Origin: a virus
DNA: 29,709 nucleotides
Strand: one strand, 5' to 3'
IMG/VR virus record: IMGVR_UViG_3300045996_001016
Location: 1 to 29,709 of that record
Shown here: piece by piece, positions 23,047 through 28,680 of the stretch
Numbering within the stretch: position 1 is the stretch's first letter
Layout: each line of letters starts with the position of its first letter
Notes under the pieces: model-generated
Databases searched by the model: none
Seen by the model: only the letters and a program-made list of their open reading frames with translations
What the model was told of the DNA's origin: nothing
Position numbers and translations under genes: made by a program

Positions 23047-23267
23047 GCCGCGCTCCCGATGGCCTTGGCGAGGGTGTCCAACGCTTCAACCTCGGTTTCA
23101 AAACAGAGCAGGGCGCCGTTCTCGTCGCGCAGTTGCTCGAAGTGAGTGAAGGACGGGCGCGGGCTGACGTCTCTGCAGACGTAATACGGTCGTCCGACAA
23201 GAGACCGGCCGATGCCGACTTTCCACGGCCACGGCGTCTTGGCGGCGCTCATGCTGCTACTCGACAT
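23043..23267 (-). CDS. 74-aa protein, unknown
   Basis: Starts MSSSSMSAAKTPWPWKVGIG at 23267, with GGGAG 8 bases upstream. The middle (RPYYVCRDVS) and C-terminus (LLCFETEVEALDTLAKAIGS) look like a small globular alpha/beta domain. The start overlaps the preceding gene by 11 bases. No family assigned. Confidence 0.6.
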   Translation of the reverse strand: MSSSSMSAAKTPWPWKVGIGRSLVGRPYYVCRDVSPRPSFTHFEQLRDENGALLCFETEVEALDTLAKAIGSAA

Positions 23268-23394
23268 GGCTGTTCTCCCACTCAGCGCGAAACGATTCCG
23301 CGCGTTGCTCGATCCACTCTTCGAAGGTCAGGCCACTCGACTCGATCGCGGCAACCTGCTCTTGCATGAACTGGTCAAACTGCTGTTGAGACAT
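23257..23394 (-). CDS. 45-aa protein, first gene of the leftward early operon
   Basis: From ATG 23394 (MSQQQFDQFMQEQVAAIESS), with GGAGG 6 bases upstream. Helical, rich in Q, E and W. It begins about 45 bases after the inferred start site of the leftward promoter, so it should be the first protein made from that operon. In lambda this position is held by N; this protein is acidic rather than Arg-rich and does not look like N. Confidence 0.6.
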   Translation of the reverse strand: MSQQQFDQFMQEQVAAIESSGLTFEEWIEQRAESFRAEWENSHVE

Positions 23395-23443
23395 GCCGGG
23401 CCTCCGACTCTTGATGCGACCCGGTGTGGGTGCGTTGGAGTGA

Positions 23444-23472
23444 AGTGTCACCGCACGGTGACATGTTGTCAA
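23444..23472 (-). promoter_or_regulatory. Leftward early promoter (pL-like)
   Basis: Minus strand TTGACA (23472-23467), 17-bp spacer, GACACT (23449-23444). The -35 box is a perfect match, the -10 box matches at 3 of 6. A 12-bp operator palindrome fills the spacer and another lies just upstream, so repressor would block polymerase. Drives the 23394-14599 operon. Confidence 0.65.
23449..23460. promoter_or_regulatory. Operator copy, within the leftward promoter spacer
   Basis: CACCGCACGGTG, one mismatch to the consensus CACCGCGCGGTG. The palindrome extends outward here to TGTCACCG-CA-CGGTGACA (23446-23463). Lies 24 bp centre to centre from the next copy at 23473, similar to the spacing of lambda operators. 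Confidence 0.65.
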
Positions 23473-23484
23473 CACCGCGCGGAG
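23473..23484. promoter_or_regulatory. Operator copy, upstream of the leftward -35 box
   Basis: CACCGCGCGGAG, one mismatch to the consensus. It lies inside the 20-base block CAACACCGCGCGGAGATAGT (23470-23489), 19/20 identical to the block at 24893-24912 at the rightward promoter. The shared GATAGT could also serve as a plus-strand -10 box for the lipoprotein gene, though no good -35 is seen. Confidence 0.65.
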
Positions 23485-23571
23485 ATAGTTCAGCCTATCG
23501 TTTACACCTAGAGGTGGGCGAGGCGAGCTAGCGCCGCTGAGAATCAGTCGTCGATCACTTGGGGAGGCTCT

Positions 23572-23853
23572 ATGCGAGCAGTGGCAGTGGTTCTGGCGAC
23601 GGCGCTGATGGCCGCTTGCGCGTCAACCAAGCCGGTCTACCTGCCGGATGGGCGGCAGGGCTACTCGGTCGATTGCTCCGGCACAGTGCGCACGTGGGGA
23701 CAGTGCCTGGAGAAGGCTGGCGCGGCGTGTGGGTCGCGAGGCTACGAGGTAGTCGACCAGGCCGGCAACAATTCCTTCGTACACAACACGATGGGCGGAA
23801 ACTTCCAGGTCATCCCGACCGCGAGCCGCACGATGATCATCGCGTGCAAATGA
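23572..23853 (+). CDS. Lipoprotein, moron-like, opposite strand
   Basis: 93 aa with GGGGAGG 4 bases before ATG 23572. Signal peptide with lipobox L-M-A-A-C (Cys16), then a cysteine-containing mature part (YSVDCSGTVRTWGQCLEKAG, AACGSRGY, ending IIACK) resembling small bacterial outer-membrane lipoproteins of unknown function. It is the only plus-strand gene within the leftward half, has its own terminator, and sits between the leftward promoter and the repressor block, the usual place of a lysogenic-conversion gene. Confidence 0.8.
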   Translation: MRAVAVVLATALMAACASTKPVYLPDGRQGYSVDCSGTVRTWGQCLEKAGAACGSRGYEVVDQAGNNSFVHNTMGGNFQVIPTASRTMIIACK

Positions 23854-23855
23854 GA

Positions 23856-23882
23856 ACGGCCGCGGTGTACGCACGCGGCCGT
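23856..23882 (+). terminator. Hairpin terminator of the lipoprotein gene
   Basis: ACGGCCGCG (23856-23864), 9-base loop, CGCGGCCGT (23874-23882), then CGTTCGTG. A perfect 9-bp stem starting 2 bases past the stop codon, with a weak U-tract. Confidence 0.65.
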
Positions 23883-23904
23883 CGTTCGTGAAGTCTTGCG
23901 CAGG

Positions 23905-24204
23905 TCATCCGGTGGGTGACTTGTCCGCCTCCGGCTGCCCAGTGATGGTCATGTGATCCGCTTGCACGATGCGTGCAAAAACGAACGTGTGGCCGTTGCC
24001 GTGGATATGGATGTCACGGACAGGGTCGTCCGATCCGACATCTTGCTCATCGCTACTGGCGCCTCCGCGAATCATGCGAAGGCGGTCTTTCATATCTGAT
24101 CTCATTTGATCCCTCTTATGGCGGGCCCAGTACAGCACTAGCCCTGCCAGTGTTGTAACCGTTAACACCACTAGGGGGATGACAAGAGAAACGTGCGATT
24201 TCAT
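23905..24204 (-). CDS. Single-pass inner-membrane protein
   Basis: 99 aa from ATG 24204 (an ATG 9 bases upstream is also possible). One strong membrane helix, residues 5-25 (VSLVIPLVVLTVTTLAGLVL), then a basic juxtamembrane stretch (YWARHKRDQMRSDMKDRLRM) and a soluble C-terminal tail with a His-rich turn (IHIHGNGHTF). The open frame extends far upstream but only shadows the repressor. Downstream of the repressor, it may be expressed in the lysogen (exclusion protein). Family unknown. Confidence 0.65.
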   Translation of the reverse strand: MKSHVSLVIPLVVLTVTTLAGLVLYWARHKRDQMRSDMKDRLRMIRGGASSDEQDVGSDDPVRDIHIHGNGHTFVFARIVQADHMTITGQPEADKSPTG

Positions 24205-24278
24205 AGCCACCATCCAACGATGGGCATTACTTGACGGCCGACAAGTTTCGGTAGTGCTGGCTGTCTCACCTAACCCAC

Positions 24279-24299
24279 ATGGCTCATGACTTGAGCCAT
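24279..24299 (-). terminator. Hairpin after the repressor gene
   Basis: ATGGCTCA (24279-24286), 5-base loop, TGAGCCAT (24292-24299), a perfect 8-bp stem 8 bases past the repressor stop. Only a weak U-run follows (GTGGGTT), so termination efficiency is uncertain. Confidence 0.5.
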
Positions 24300-24307
24300 T
24301 CGGTCGC

Positions 24308-24922
24308 TCACCCGCTTTTTGCAAGGCGCGGCTTGACCTCGAGCTTGTGGTCCTCATCAATGAGCGCCAAAAGATCGGCGCCTGTGAGCTTCTTGTTGCC
24401 GAGAGCCGCGACAACCTCGCGGGCGGCCTCTTCCCATGTGAGTTTGTACTCATAGGCTTCATTTGGCGCCAGCCAACGCATGATGCTTTTGCACGTCTCG
24501 GCGCGCATTTCCGGTTCTTCGGCCAGCAAGGAGAGCAGCGGGGCGAGCTGACGGCGATCAAGCTTTGGCAGCTTCGCAATTGCGCGCGCGAGGGCGTCGA
24601 TAGCCCCTGCCAGACCGGCAGGCTCGGGCGGCGCTTCTGTGCGGTCATGCTCCATGTCGAGCCACAACCGCGGTAGCTGCAGCGCTTCTTCAATCTCGCG
24701 TGCCGCGACTTCGCCGAAGCCCTTGGCGCCACGGAGCATGTCGCTCCAGTAGCTGGGCGACTTGCCAACTTCGCGCACGAAGTCGGATGGCTTCCACTGG
24801 CGCGCTTCGGCCAGGCTCCTGAGGTTCTTGAGGCGTAAATCCTTCACGCCGCCATTGGACTTGGCAAGAATCTCTCCGAAGTGATTGACGCGCAACACCG
24901 CGCGGTGATAGTCTTCGGACAT
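24308..24922 (-). CDS. Phage repressor-like HTH protein
   Basis: 204 aa from ATG 24922. Residues about 31-90 carry an HTH of the phage repressor type (RLKNLRSLAEARQWKPSDFV, then GKSPSYWSDMLRGAKGFG and EIEEALQLPRLWLD). The remainder is a helical C-terminal domain (LPKLDRRQLAPLLSLLAEE, WLAPNEAYEYKLTWEEAARE) without the S24 Ser-Lys protease site, so RecA-driven self-cleavage is not expected. The ATG lies across the start of the rightward gene (they share CATG) and no ribosome site is seen, so a start further in is possible. It faces the Cro-like gene with an operator in between, as CI faces Cro. Confidence 0.75.
   Translation of the reverse strand: MSEDYHRAVLRVNHFGEILAKSNGGVKDLRLKNLRSLAEARQWKPSDFVREVGKSPSYWSDMLRGAKGFGEVAAREIEEALQLPRLWLDMEHDRTEAPPEPAGLAGAIDALARAIAKLPKLDRRQLAPLLSLLAEEPEMRAETCKSIMRWLAPNEAYEYKLTWEEAAREVVAALGNKKLTGADLLALIDEDHKLEVKPRLAKSG
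24885..24912 (+). promoter_or_regulatory. Rightward early promoter (pR-like)
   Basis: TTGACG (24885-24890), 16-bp spacer, GATAGT (24907-24912). Five and four matches to consensus. The inferred start is near 24919, only 1-2 bases before the ATG of the Cro-like gene, so the mRNA would be practically leaderless. A perfect operator palindrome fills the spacer. Confidence 0.65.
24896..24907. promoter_or_regulatory. Operator copy, perfect palindrome in the rightward promoter
   Basis: CACCGCGCGGTG, a perfect 12-bp palindrome between -35 and -10. Two further copies with one mismatch each lie at the leftward promoter. Binding here would block the rightward promoter. Confidence 0.7.
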
Positions 24923-25196
24923 GGAACGCTTCAAAGCCCACTGGCGGTCCCTGACGGGCGCCGAAAGACAAGAGTTAGCCAAGCTCATTGGCGCCGGCCG
25001 TCGGTACTTGGACAACGTCGCGCTCGAGAACGAGCGGCGCCAGTTGTCGCCGAAGTTCTGCGTCTGGACGGAGCGCGCTACTCGCGGCCTCTTCACATGC
25101 GAAGAGTTGGCGCCCAGCGAGCCGTGGCGCCGCGTCAAGGACCGCGCCTGGCCCGTGAAAGAGGGGCGGCCGGTTCTTGACTACGCAAGCGACTGA
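24921..25196 (+). CDS. Cro/YdaS-like HTH regulator
   Basis: 91 aa. HTH: LTGAERQELAKLIGAGRRYL, then SPKFCVWTERATRGLFTCEE, followed by LAPSEPW and a WP-containing tail ending RPVLDYA. The 'I-E-R-A-T-x-G-x-V-x-x-x-E-L-x-P' pattern is that of YdaS and many phage Cro-like proteins. It is the first gene of the rightward operon. Its start overlaps the divergent repressor start by 2 bases and there is no classical ribosome site, consistent with a leaderless mRNA. Confidence 0.78.
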   Translation: MERFKAHWRSLTGAERQELAKLIGAGRRYLDNVALENERRQLSPKFCVWTERATRGLFTCEELAPSEPWRRVKDRAWPVKEGRPVLDYASD

Positions 25197-25362: not shown

Positions 25363-25743
25363 ATGAGTGCATCAAAGCAAGCCGCGCGCAACCAACAGCA
25401 GCTCGACTGCGCCGGCGCGGGCGGCGCGTGTCCACACGGCTCGGACGGCGTGCGCGGCCCAGGCCTCGACGTCGAGGATCTGCCGCTGCTCAGCCGACGT
25501 GGCTTCAGCCACCCGCTCGGAAAGATGGACGCGGAACTGGGCAAGGTGAGGATGCACAGCGAGACGGTGCTTGCGCTGCAAGTGAAGGCGGCTGAGCACG
25601 GGATGCCCCTCTCTGAGTTCGTCCGGATTGTTTTGGAATGCGTCGTCTACGGCGCCGAAAGCACCGCCAGTGTCAGCGCGGATCGCATTCGACGTGTGGG
25701 CGCGTTGGTGGGTGGTTCTGCCCCCCATGGGAGCGCGCGATGA
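25363..25743 (+). CDS. Protein with C-terminal ribbon-helix-helix-like segment
   Basis: 126 aa from ATG 25363 (GGAAG about 9 bases upstream). The N-terminal half is low complexity (AGAGGACPHGSDGVRGPGLD). The C-terminal part has KVRMHSETVLALQVKAAEHG then MPLSEFVRIVLECVVYG, which fits a beta strand plus two helices as in RHH/MetJ-type DNA-binding proteins. Stop overlaps the next start (ATGA). Confidence 0.6.
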   Translation: MSASKQAARNQQQLDCAGAGGACPHGSDGVRGPGLDVEDLPLLSRRGFSHPLGKMDAELGKVRMHSETVLALQVKAAEHGMPLSEFVRIVLECVVYGAESTASVSADRIRRVGALVGGSAPHGSAR

Positions 25744-26036
25744 ACTGCAAGCCTGGCGACTTGGCGATGATCGTCGGCGGCGTCCAAGAGAACCTTGGGC
25801 GACTGGTTCGCGTGATTGGCCCTGTTGACGTCTGGGGCTGGGAGGTTGAGGCGCTGCAGCCGTTGACGGTCTACACGTCCCCGCCAGGCGCCGCTGTCGG
25901 CATTCTCGGTGCCGGTGGACATGCTGGCGTGTCCGATCACATTCTCCGGCCGCTTCGCGACCAGGACGGTGACGACCAAACATTCACCTGGGCCGGGAAG
26001 CCATCACATATCGACTCGCCCGCGGAGGCTCGCTGA
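25740..26036 (+). CDS. Conserved small phage protein
   Basis: 98 aa from ATG 25740 (MNCKPGDLAMIVGGVQENLG), ATGA overlap. Has the pattern 'KPGDLAxxV...N.GxxVxV...W.VE.LQPL...D..LRPLRDxDGDD...WAGKP', common in small phage and prophage proteins (beta-rich, perhaps SH3-like). The function is not known. Confidence 0.72.
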   Translation: MNCKPGDLAMIVGGVQENLGRLVRVIGPVDVWGWEVEALQPLTVYTSPPGAAVGILGAGGHAGVSDHILRPLRDQDGDDQTFTWAGKPSHIDSPAEAR

Positions 26037-26038
26037 AT

Positions 26039-26323
26039 GTGGGCAGCCGTCTCGGAAAGCCGAATTTGCGCCCGGCGAAGTGGTCCCTCGTCCTTGACCG
26101 ACTGGCCGCTGGGACACCGGGTTGCATGCCGAAGCCCTCATGGCTTCTCTACTTGTCCGGCGAAGCGGCCTTGTGCATCGCTGACCGCAACGAAGGCGCC
26201 CGCATCGCGCGCAGCGGTCGAGTTGATCCATGCGCCTCTTGCACCGCTGGGTTTCGTGCTGATGCGCAGGCGCGTGGCGTGTGCCACCCGCAATGGTTCA
26301 AAGAACAGGAGCAAGTGAAGTGA
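26039..26323 (+). CDS. Small Cys-rich protein, unknown (GTG start)
   Basis: 94 aa from GTG 26039, with GGAGG about 10 bases upstream in the end of the previous gene. This frame, not the overlapping ATG 26037 frame, has sensible composition. C-terminal CASC and GVCHPQWF form a possible metal site. Stop overlaps the next GTG start by GTGA. Confidence 0.6.
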   Translation: MGSRLGKPNLRPAKWSLVLDRLAAGTPGCMPKPSWLLYLSGEAALCIADRNEGARIARSGRVDPCASCTAGFRADAQARGVCHPQWFKEQEQVK

Positions 26324-26658
26324 CTCAGCTTCAGCTCGAACTCGCTCGCGATCTCGGCCGCTCTGCCGCGGAGGCGTGCGCCGAGAAGGCAGATTGCCTG
26401 GCGCCTGGCTGGATTGAAGCGGCGATCGGCGCTCTGCGCCGCTTCGCTGCGCACCAAGCCGGCGCCTTCACTGTCGAGATGGCGCGCGACGTCATCGCCG
26501 AGGATATTGCAGAGCCTCACGACAAACGCGCATGGGGCGTGGTCACACGCATGGCGGTGAAACGCGCCTTCATCGCACGCGTGCCTGGCGCATGGGCGCC
26601 GGCCGCCAGTTCGCACGCATCGCCGAAGCCGATGTATCGCCGGGGGAGCGCGGCATGA
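26320..26658 (+). CDS. Conserved phage protein, winged-helix-like
   Basis: 112 aa from GTG 26320 with AGGAG 8 bases upstream. The pattern 'ACAEKA...PGWIEAAIGALRRFA' followed by FTVEMARDVI, EPHDKRAWGVVTRMAVKRAF and SPKPMYRRG is found in many phages between regulators and helicase genes and looks like a small winged-helix domain. Likely replication-associated, by position only. Confidence 0.7.
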   Translation: MTQLQLELARDLGRSAAEACAEKADCLAPGWIEAAIGALRRFAAHQAGAFTVEMARDVIAEDIAEPHDKRAWGVVTRMAVKRAFIARVPGAWAPAASSHASPKPMYRRGSAA

Positions 26659-26795
26659 CCGTATTCGCCATCCCGCGCGCCGGACGCCCGCTGGGCTACT
26701 CATATCGCTGCGCGTACTGCAACAAGAACCAGCCCACCTCGATGAAGCGCAAGAAGACCGCGCGCGGGTGGAAGTGTGGGGAGTGCAAGGCGTGA
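26655..26795 (+). CDS. 46-aa zinc-ribbon protein
   Basis: ATG 26655 with GGGGGAG upstream, ATGA overlap. Two CxxC knuckles, YRCAYCNK and WKCGECKA, separated by a basic loop (TSMKRKKTARG): a minimal zinc ribbon. Stop overlaps the methyltransferase start. Confidence 0.65.
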   Translation: MTVFAIPRAGRPLGYSYRCAYCNKNQPTSMKRKKTARGWKCGECKA

Positions 26796-27838: not shown

Positions 27839-28680
27839 ACGCCGAACTCTTCCCCGAGTTGGCTCTCGCGCCACCACCGTACCCGTCCGATGTGCAAGCC
27901 AAGGGCTGGCGCTTTGAGCTCGACTACGAGCAGATCGAGCAGAGCGACACCGTCGCCTTGGCCATCGCGCTGGCGATGCAGGAAGGCAAGCCGCTCGGCC
28001 GCGCGCTGCTGCTGAACATGTGGTACGCCGCATGGAAATCCACGCCGTGCGGCAGCCTCCCCGCGAACGACCAACTGCTGGCCGCAGCGATGCAGATCCC
28101 GCCGGCACTGGTTGCCGACTACCGCGCGGTGCTGCTGCGCGGTTGGTGGGAGGCTGCAGACGGCCGCCTCTACCACCCGACGCTCACCACTCGCGTGTTG
28201 GAAATGGTCGAGTACCGCCGCAAGAACGCGGAGCGCGTTGCTGGTTTCAAGGCAAGGCAGTGTGAGCAACGCGACGGTAATGCATTACCAACGCGCAAGG
28301 TACGAGGAAGGAACGACACCGGAACCGGAACCAGTAATACACCCCTTACCCCTCAAAGGGGAAAGTCGACGCTGCCACTTCAGGACTGGCTCGATTCGGT
28401 CAAGGCCGCCGGAGAGAAGCCGATCGCGGAAGACGACCCGATCTTCGCCTACTCGTCCAAAGCCAAGATCCCAGACGACTTCCTGCGCCTCGCTTGGCTC
28501 GAGTTCCGGCACCAGTACACCCAGCCGGGGGCCAAGTCATACAAGGACTGGCGCGCGCACTTCCGCAACGCGGTTCGGCGCAACTGGCTCCGCCTGTGGT
28601 GGGTCGACCGTGACGGCAACTACGCGCTGACAGCGAGCGGCGCGCAAGCCCGTATCACCCATGCGGAGGCCGACGAATGA
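27835..28680 (+). CDS. Phage replication protein, DUF1376/YdaU-like N-terminus
   Basis: 281 aa from GTG 27835 (GGAGG 7 bases upstream, GTGA overlap). Residues 40-135 (LLLNMWYAAWKSTPCGSLPA, then LRGWWEAADGRLYHPTLTTR and VEYRRKNAERVAGFKARQC) follow the DUF1376 pattern of replication-initiation proteins. A Ser/Thr/Pro linker leads to a C-terminal domain (DDFLRLAWLEFRHQY, WRAHFRNAVRRNWLRLWW) like helicase loader or DnaT-type domains. It lies directly before DnaB, overlapping 4 bases. Confidence 0.75.
   Translation: MNAELFPELALAPPPYPSDVQAKGWRFELDYEQIEQSDTVALAIALAMQEGKPLGRALLLNMWYAAWKSTPCGSLPANDQLLAAAMQIPPALVADYRAVLLRGWWEAADGRLYHPTLTTRVLEMVEYRRKNAERVAGFKARQCEQRDGNALPTRKVRGRNDTGTGTSNTPLTPQRGKSTLPLQDWLDSVKAAGEKPIAEDDPIFAYSSKAKIPDDFLRLAWLEFRHQYTQPGAKSYKDWRAHFRNAVRRNWLRLWWVDRDGNYALTASGAQARITHAEADE

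Follow-up and report, generated by a model that had tools for sequence, protein, structure and literature searches.

Putative OL/OR operators beside the divergent cro and repressor genes of an uncultured phage with a YdaS-type Cro

Genes, promoters and palindromic sites of the locus

The DNA analyzed here (the window) is an IMG/VR virus record of 29,709 bases with a GC content of 65%. It represents a tailed phage and encodes a portal, a major head protein, terminase subunits, an Erf-like annealing protein and exonucleases. The region considered below contains a cro gene and a divergently orientated repressor gene together with several palindromic sites and promoters. By position these are:

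23257..23394, minus strand: first gene downstream of PL, 45 aa, function not assigned, conserved in the close relatives L005 and L008
23444..23472, minus strand: promoter PL, read from sequence; -35 TTGACA (23472-23467), 17-bp spacer, -10 GACACT (23449-23444)
23446..23463, unstranded: putative operator OL1, TGTCACCGCACGGTGACA, 8 of 9 dyad positions, in the PL spacer
23470..23487, unstranded: putative operator OL2, CAACACCGCGCGGAGATA, abutting the PL -35 box, 24 bp from OL1
23505..23516, unstranded: OL3 candidate, CACCTAGAGGTG, one of the three exact CACC-N4-GGTG dyads in the record
24308..24847, minus strand: cI-type repressor gene, ~179 aa, probable GTG start at 24847-24845, with HTH domain (HTH_31, phrog_5736)
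24867..24895, minus strand: PRM candidate, read from sequence; -35 TTGCGC (24895-24890), 17-bp spacer, -10 GATTCT (24872-24867)
24869..24886, unstranded: OR2 candidate on the right, weak, AATCTCTCCGAAGTGATT, matching at 7 of 9 dyad positions, directly adjoining the PR -35 box
24885..24912, plus strand: promoter PR; -35 TTGACG (24885-24890), 16-bp spacer, -10 GATAGT (24907-24912)
24893..24910, unstranded: putative operator OR1, the strongest on the right, CAACACCGCGCGGTGATA, core 24896-24907, in the PR spacer and at the same position in related phages
24921..25196, plus strand: cro, YdaS/PF15943, phrog_35 family, 91 aa, assigned by profile matches

The cro product matched phrog_35 with an E value of 8e-8. 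Against PF15943 it reached an E value of 1e-4 and 22.5 bits, which is under the curated cut-off of 30; the Cro proteins of mEp043 and IPK were under this cut-off likewise. Out of 372 frames, exactly these two were picked out by profiles based on the Cro and CI sequences of other phages (Cro 3.3e-12, CI 1.4e-15). The Cro profile did not match lambda Cro. The ATG of cro is located 8 nt past the end of the PR -10 box (24907-24923), so that cro is probably transcribed with no leader or almost none. In IPK, LEh10 and P. franconis the distance between the cro ATG and the operator at PR is equally short.

No S24/LexA peptidase domain was detected in the repressor, and its C-terminal ~110 residues matched no family. 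It is short and without peptidase domain like the repressor of L034, a contig described below. The nearest solved relative was 5d50 'Repressor' (E value 1.5e-4, HTH part only), which we take to be SPC32H Rep. Predicting its structure from two sequences gave a model of low quality (mean pLDDT 55). A weak blastp match to lambda CI (22.9% identity), obtained in a database of two sequences, was discounted.

A preliminary description of this DNA had given the repressor product as 24308-24922, which is probably mis-started. This ATG lies beyond the operator, and a start at 24922 would place the operator inside cI and overlap the cro start codon. In the 204-codon frame, the similarity to phrog_5736, the CI profile and 5d50 does not set in before codon 26-28, which makes the GTG at 24847-24845 the likelier start. 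Downstream of cro no clear CII or YdaT equivalent was found in 25363-26795; the relative L034 has a CII (phrog_101).

The three palindromes of the preliminary description are all present where it had located them, namely CACCGCGCGGTG at 24896-24907, CACCGCGCGGAG at 23473-23484 and CACCGCACGGTG at 23449-23460. The latter two lie 24 bp apart, as reported, and the perfect TTGACA of the leftward promoter was confirmed as well (PL, 23472-23467, minus strand). Two further sites had been missed. These are the OL3 candidate and the OR2 candidate, the latter 24 bp from OR1 (centres 24877.5 and 24901.5) and exactly where the family grammar described below predicts it.

The operator between the divergent repressor and cro genes overlaps PR, with OR1 in the PR spacer, and OL1 and OL2 are found at PL on the far side of cI, 1447 bp from OR1. 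The layout reads [CTATCTCCGCGCGGTG]TTGACA-acat-[GTCACCGTGCGGTGAC] at PL and [ATCTCTCCGAAGTGA]TTGACG-cgc-[AACACCGCGCGGTGAT] at PR, where the bracketed OR2 is weak. PR was the sole sigma-70-like promoter from a scan of 23380-25000. The -10 box of PL (GACACT) is a poor match, and PRM is proposed from a weak hexamer pair of which the -10 box is weak. The OL3 candidate overlaps a TTTACA (23502-23516) which could be the -35 box of a rightward lipoprotein gene at 23572-23853 (phrog_5685).

A 20-base block had been noted as duplicated at 23470-23489 and 24893-24912, and 19 of its 20 positions indeed match. It is the sole same-strand pair of 20-mers with this similarity in the whole 29.7-kb record. The block consists of the operator and the first three bases of a leftward -35 box. 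It is repeated because OL2 and OR1 hold the same place relative to such a box, TTGACA at PL and TTGCGC at the proposed PRM.

An occurrence of the 12-mer at the rate expected by chance had been named as evidence against an operator set. The outcome depended on stringency. With at most one mismatch 4 matches were present versus 0.62 expected, and none of 100 shuffled sequences reached 4. With at most two mismatches, however, the count was at chance level (7 versus 7.9 expected), so that the loose 12-mer by itself is no evidence. The fourth copy with one mismatch (TACCGCGCGGTG, 28120-28131) is located inside a replication-protein reading frame and looks like a chance occurrence. Exact CACC-N4-GGTG dyads were found just three times in 29.7 kb (23449, 23505 and 24896), all within 1.45 kb, and similar clustering was seen in none of 300 shuffles.

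When the window was scanned with a matrix trained on other phages, OL came first and OR fourth among ~59,000 positions; the scores of 9.4 (OL) and 7.0 (OR) were not significant when compared to shuffled genomes, where the best score per genome was 8.5 +/- 2.4. The second-best match of this matrix was an operator-like dyad beside TTAACG (24139-24179), upstream of a small conserved leftward ORF (~24107-23905). A reading as methylation or restriction site was rejected, since the motif does not occur repeatedly across the genome. No phage paper was found when one literature library was searched for the 12-mer as text.

Conservation in relatives and a shared promoter grammar

The two close relatives L005 and L008 were derived from one metagenome. 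L005 and the window do not differ between 24938 and 24820, a stretch of 119 bases spanning OR1, the OR2 candidate and the PRM candidate. In the remaining shared cI frame 19% of the positions differ (~81% identity), mostly at third codon positions. Zero differences in the first 103 bases of the cI frame would be expected by chance with a probability of ~5e-10, if sites are independent. As judged from this pattern, the identical stretch marks regulatory DNA; recent recombination in one population could contribute, and local recombination could also yield such a stretch.

At OL1, both arms were kept in L005 and the centre alone was changed, resulting in a perfect core palindrome (CACCGCGCGGTG at L005 position 1489; TCACCGCGCGGTGA). 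The centre of OL2 was lost (L005 1460-1480) and its flanks CTATCTC and GGTGTTGACA were kept, so that OL2 is apparently the dispensable one. One arm of the OL3 candidate dyad was degraded. L008, which is 97% identical there, carried OL1 and OL2 and the OL3 dyad too. Thus, conservation in related phages, which had been suggested as a check, was found for the OR region and the OL1 arms in L005 and for OL1 and OL2 in L008. The OL2 flanks kept in L005 (TATCTC and GGTGTTGACA) match lambda OL2/PL almost letter for letter. Both contigs end inside the immunity region (positions 1-30 of each), as if strain differences had stopped the assembly.

Beyond these relatives, Cro relatives from annotated phages and bacterial contigs were collected and their promoters compared in register. 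The cro promoters follow a plan in which a dyad abuts TTGAxx and, after few bases, a second dyad lies in the -35/-10 spacer, with the centres of both ~24-26 bp apart. The same grammar was seen at PR, and usually also at PL beyond cI, in nine or more further phages and prophages with a YdaS-type Cro. Those with this layout at PR, and also at PL whenever a PL copy could be located, were mEp043, IPK, the prophages of Paraburkholderia LEh10 and P. franconis, Mannheimia 587AP2, Mcat17, PG1 and BgVeeders33; CharmingMan, LPPA56 and Rb1 showed it at PR only. In IPK, ATTACCGTACGGTAAT at PR has an exact copy at PL 1.77 kb away, and LEh10 has an exact operator copy at PL too. The PL copies of mEp043, for which cI, Cro, cII and N are annotated, deviate at one and at two positions. 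The operator letters vary from phage to phage; the position relative to cro and cI is constant.

A composite PL pattern was then used to search 2.9 million viral contigs by DNA alone, and a second version of the pattern was also run. Besides the two close relatives the first pattern retrieved L034; the second retrieved L035, L036, L037 and L038. Cro (E values 1e-26 to 1e-30), a divergent CI and matching operators on both sides were present in L034, L035 and L037. The full record of L038 (G007) contained Cro, CI and CACCGCGCGGTG upstream of cro, and like the former three it has operators on both sides. L036 was an unrelated chance match without cro and cI. In total, the prediction held for four of the five unrelated contigs.

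Other searches were less productive. An exact match to the 20-base motif, L007, was unrelated DNA without the genes. Nothing was found with the repressor as query against genome contigs or with Cro as query against viral contigs. Similarity to known phages at the DNA level was restricted to a methyltransferase gene, and relatives identified by Erf had other immunity regions, or none within reach.

The composite rule of operator, -35 box and second operator ~24 bp further on, on both sides of cI, thus spans many phages with differing letters. Since unannotated immunity regions were found by DNA alone in four of five cases, the rule could be used to annotate the lysogeny switches of metagenomic phages and to group these by predicted immunity. 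For the window itself, the analysis provides an operator and promoter map of an uncultured phage from the YdaS-Cro branch, whose switches were dissected in few cases.

Proposed working of the switch and alternative readings

The preliminary description had interpreted the palindromes as OL/OR-like operators. This reading is supported by the identity of the genes, by conservation in a relative, by the layout in phages of the same Cro family and by the recovery of four cro/cI loci from DNA alone. The degeneracy of OR2, the erosion of OL2 in L005 and the poor -10 box of PL speak against it. We consider it very likely that the palindromes are the OL and OR operators of a lambda-type CI/Cro lysis-lysogeny switch, with the binding of the proteins being putative.

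From the sites, their positions and conservation, the gene families and the grammar found elsewhere we infer binding, repression, activation of PRM and the preferences of the proteins for single sites. The repressor and the YdaS-type Cro would bind the same 18-bp dyads, with a half-site of roughly TATCACCGC and a spacing of CACC-N4-GGTG. A dimer on OR1 would cover the PR spacer and block cro and the rightward genes. Correspondingly, a dimer on OL1, assisted by OL2, would cover the PL spacer and block the leftward genes. Repressor or Cro at OL2 and OR2, which abut the -35 boxes, and at OR1 and OL1 in the spacers would exclude the polymerase.

By arithmetic, OR1 is centred at -41.5 of the proposed PRM and OL2 at about -41.5 of PL. 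A centre at -41.5 is the classic activation position, and lambda CI activates from OR2 at about -42. The repressor on OR1 may therefore contact the polymerase and activate transcription of its own gene, in the manner of lambda CI at OR2. The weak OR2 would cover the spacer and the -10 box of PRM and lead to shut-off at high dose.

Because the repressor is without an S24 domain, induction by RecA-driven self-cleavage is unlikely. The analogy to SPC32H Rep/Ant (see PMC9638917) makes control of the repressor by an antirepressor a possibility; none was identified in the window. Rather speculatively, and with doubts on our side, the locus might represent a minimal switch with a non-self-cleaving repressor and one strong right operator which both blocks PR and activates PRM at -41.5. 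Its Cro is from a family unrelated to lambda Cro, so that the lambda-like half-site would then possibly have been reached independently, with only the N4 versus N3 spacing separating the immunities.

Whether both proteins use the sites deserves separate consideration, as either Cro or the repressor could be the only one to do so while the other binds elsewhere. The small number and unequal strength of the OL and OR sites would fit this, as would a repressor sequence without the cooperative C-terminal domain of lambda CI. However, the footprints of PaaR2 and YdaS overlap in CP-933P (PMC8630535), and judged by position related loci as a rule have one operator set for both proteins. We therefore regard a use by one protein as improbable.

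The identity of the binder is deduced from position only, and in principle the palindromes could serve another regulator in early promoters, which might come from the host or be another protein of the phage. Across phages of Moraxella, Mannheimia, Escherichia and Paraburkholderia, however, the letters differ and the position stays, as expected for self-encoded regulators, which makes a foreign regulator very improbable. Chance palindromes in GC-rich DNA or mere coding sequence, with the OR palindrome as codons 5-9 of the long cI frame, are suggested by the 65% GC, the chance level of the 12-mer at two mismatches and the open frame 24308-24922 running through the site, but can be dismissed almost entirely given the dyad clustering, the uniqueness of the 20-mer pair, the onset of cI homology at codon 26-28, third codon positions frozen in the 119-base stretch only and the other immunity regions recovered by the grammar search.

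Comparison with known switches

Operators shared by a repressor and Cro, as preferred here, can be compared with four systems. The viral contig L034 (IMGVR_UViG_3300020131_000004) also has CACC-N4-GGTG operators at OL (24 bp apart) and at OR, a short phrog_5736 repressor without S24 and a phrog_35 Cro. As in the window, a phrog_5685 lipoprotein gene, 43% identical, is located between cI and PL. In contrast to the window, L034 carries three recognisable OR sites, has the lipoprotein gene on the opposite strand and has a GC content of 49%.

The E. coli phage mEp043 shares the YdaS-type Cro and carries TTTACCTACAGGTAAA in the PR spacer with near-copies at PL beyond cI. In mEp043, an ACC/GGT core is surrounded by other flanks, and cI carries a Peptidase_S24 domain.

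In footprints from the E. coli prophage CP-933P, PaaR2 and YdaS occupied overlapping sites at PR and PRM; both proteins also repress PL. Inverted repeats of 18 bp extend over PR/PRM, PL is equipped with OL sites, and expression is bistable as a result of the two regulators (PMC8630535). YdaS has been treated as the Cro equivalent (PMC9986795). The window resembles CP-933P in the YdaS-type Cro, the short repressor outside the lambda CI family and the divergent genes. Both also have PR/PRM covered by several inverted repeats of 18 bp and, upstream of the repressor operon, a PL carrying OL sites. The half-sites differ (GTTTAGTAA in CP-933P versus TATCACCGC-like in the window), and so does the arrangement, with four evenly spaced repeats in CP-933P versus one strong and one weak OR site here. 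Furthermore, paaA2-parE2 genes were not detected in the window.

As in lambda, the operators flank cI, OL1 and OR1 are located in the spacers of PL and PR, and OL2 and OR2 abut the -35 boxes. The annotated centres of lambda OR1-OR2 and OL1-OL2 are 24 bp apart, as they are here. Even the half-site letters are nearly identical (lambda OL2 CAACACCGCCAGAGATA, window OL2 CAACACCGCGCGGAGATA). However, lambda operators are 17 bp long with an N3 centre and three sites each in OL and OR, whereas those of the window are 18 bp long with an N4 centre and two OR sites, one of them weak, with no clear OR3. Moreover, Cro is of the YdaS type and the repressor is without an S24 hit, whereas lambda CI has a cleavable S24 domain.

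The sites had been proposed to form an undescribed operator family. This holds for their exact sequence; the kind of operator is known from PaaR2/YdaS of CP-933P, and lambda half-sites have nearly the same letters. The switch is lambda-like in its proposed working and YdaS-type by its Cro, with its own operator specificity rather than the operator set of lambda.
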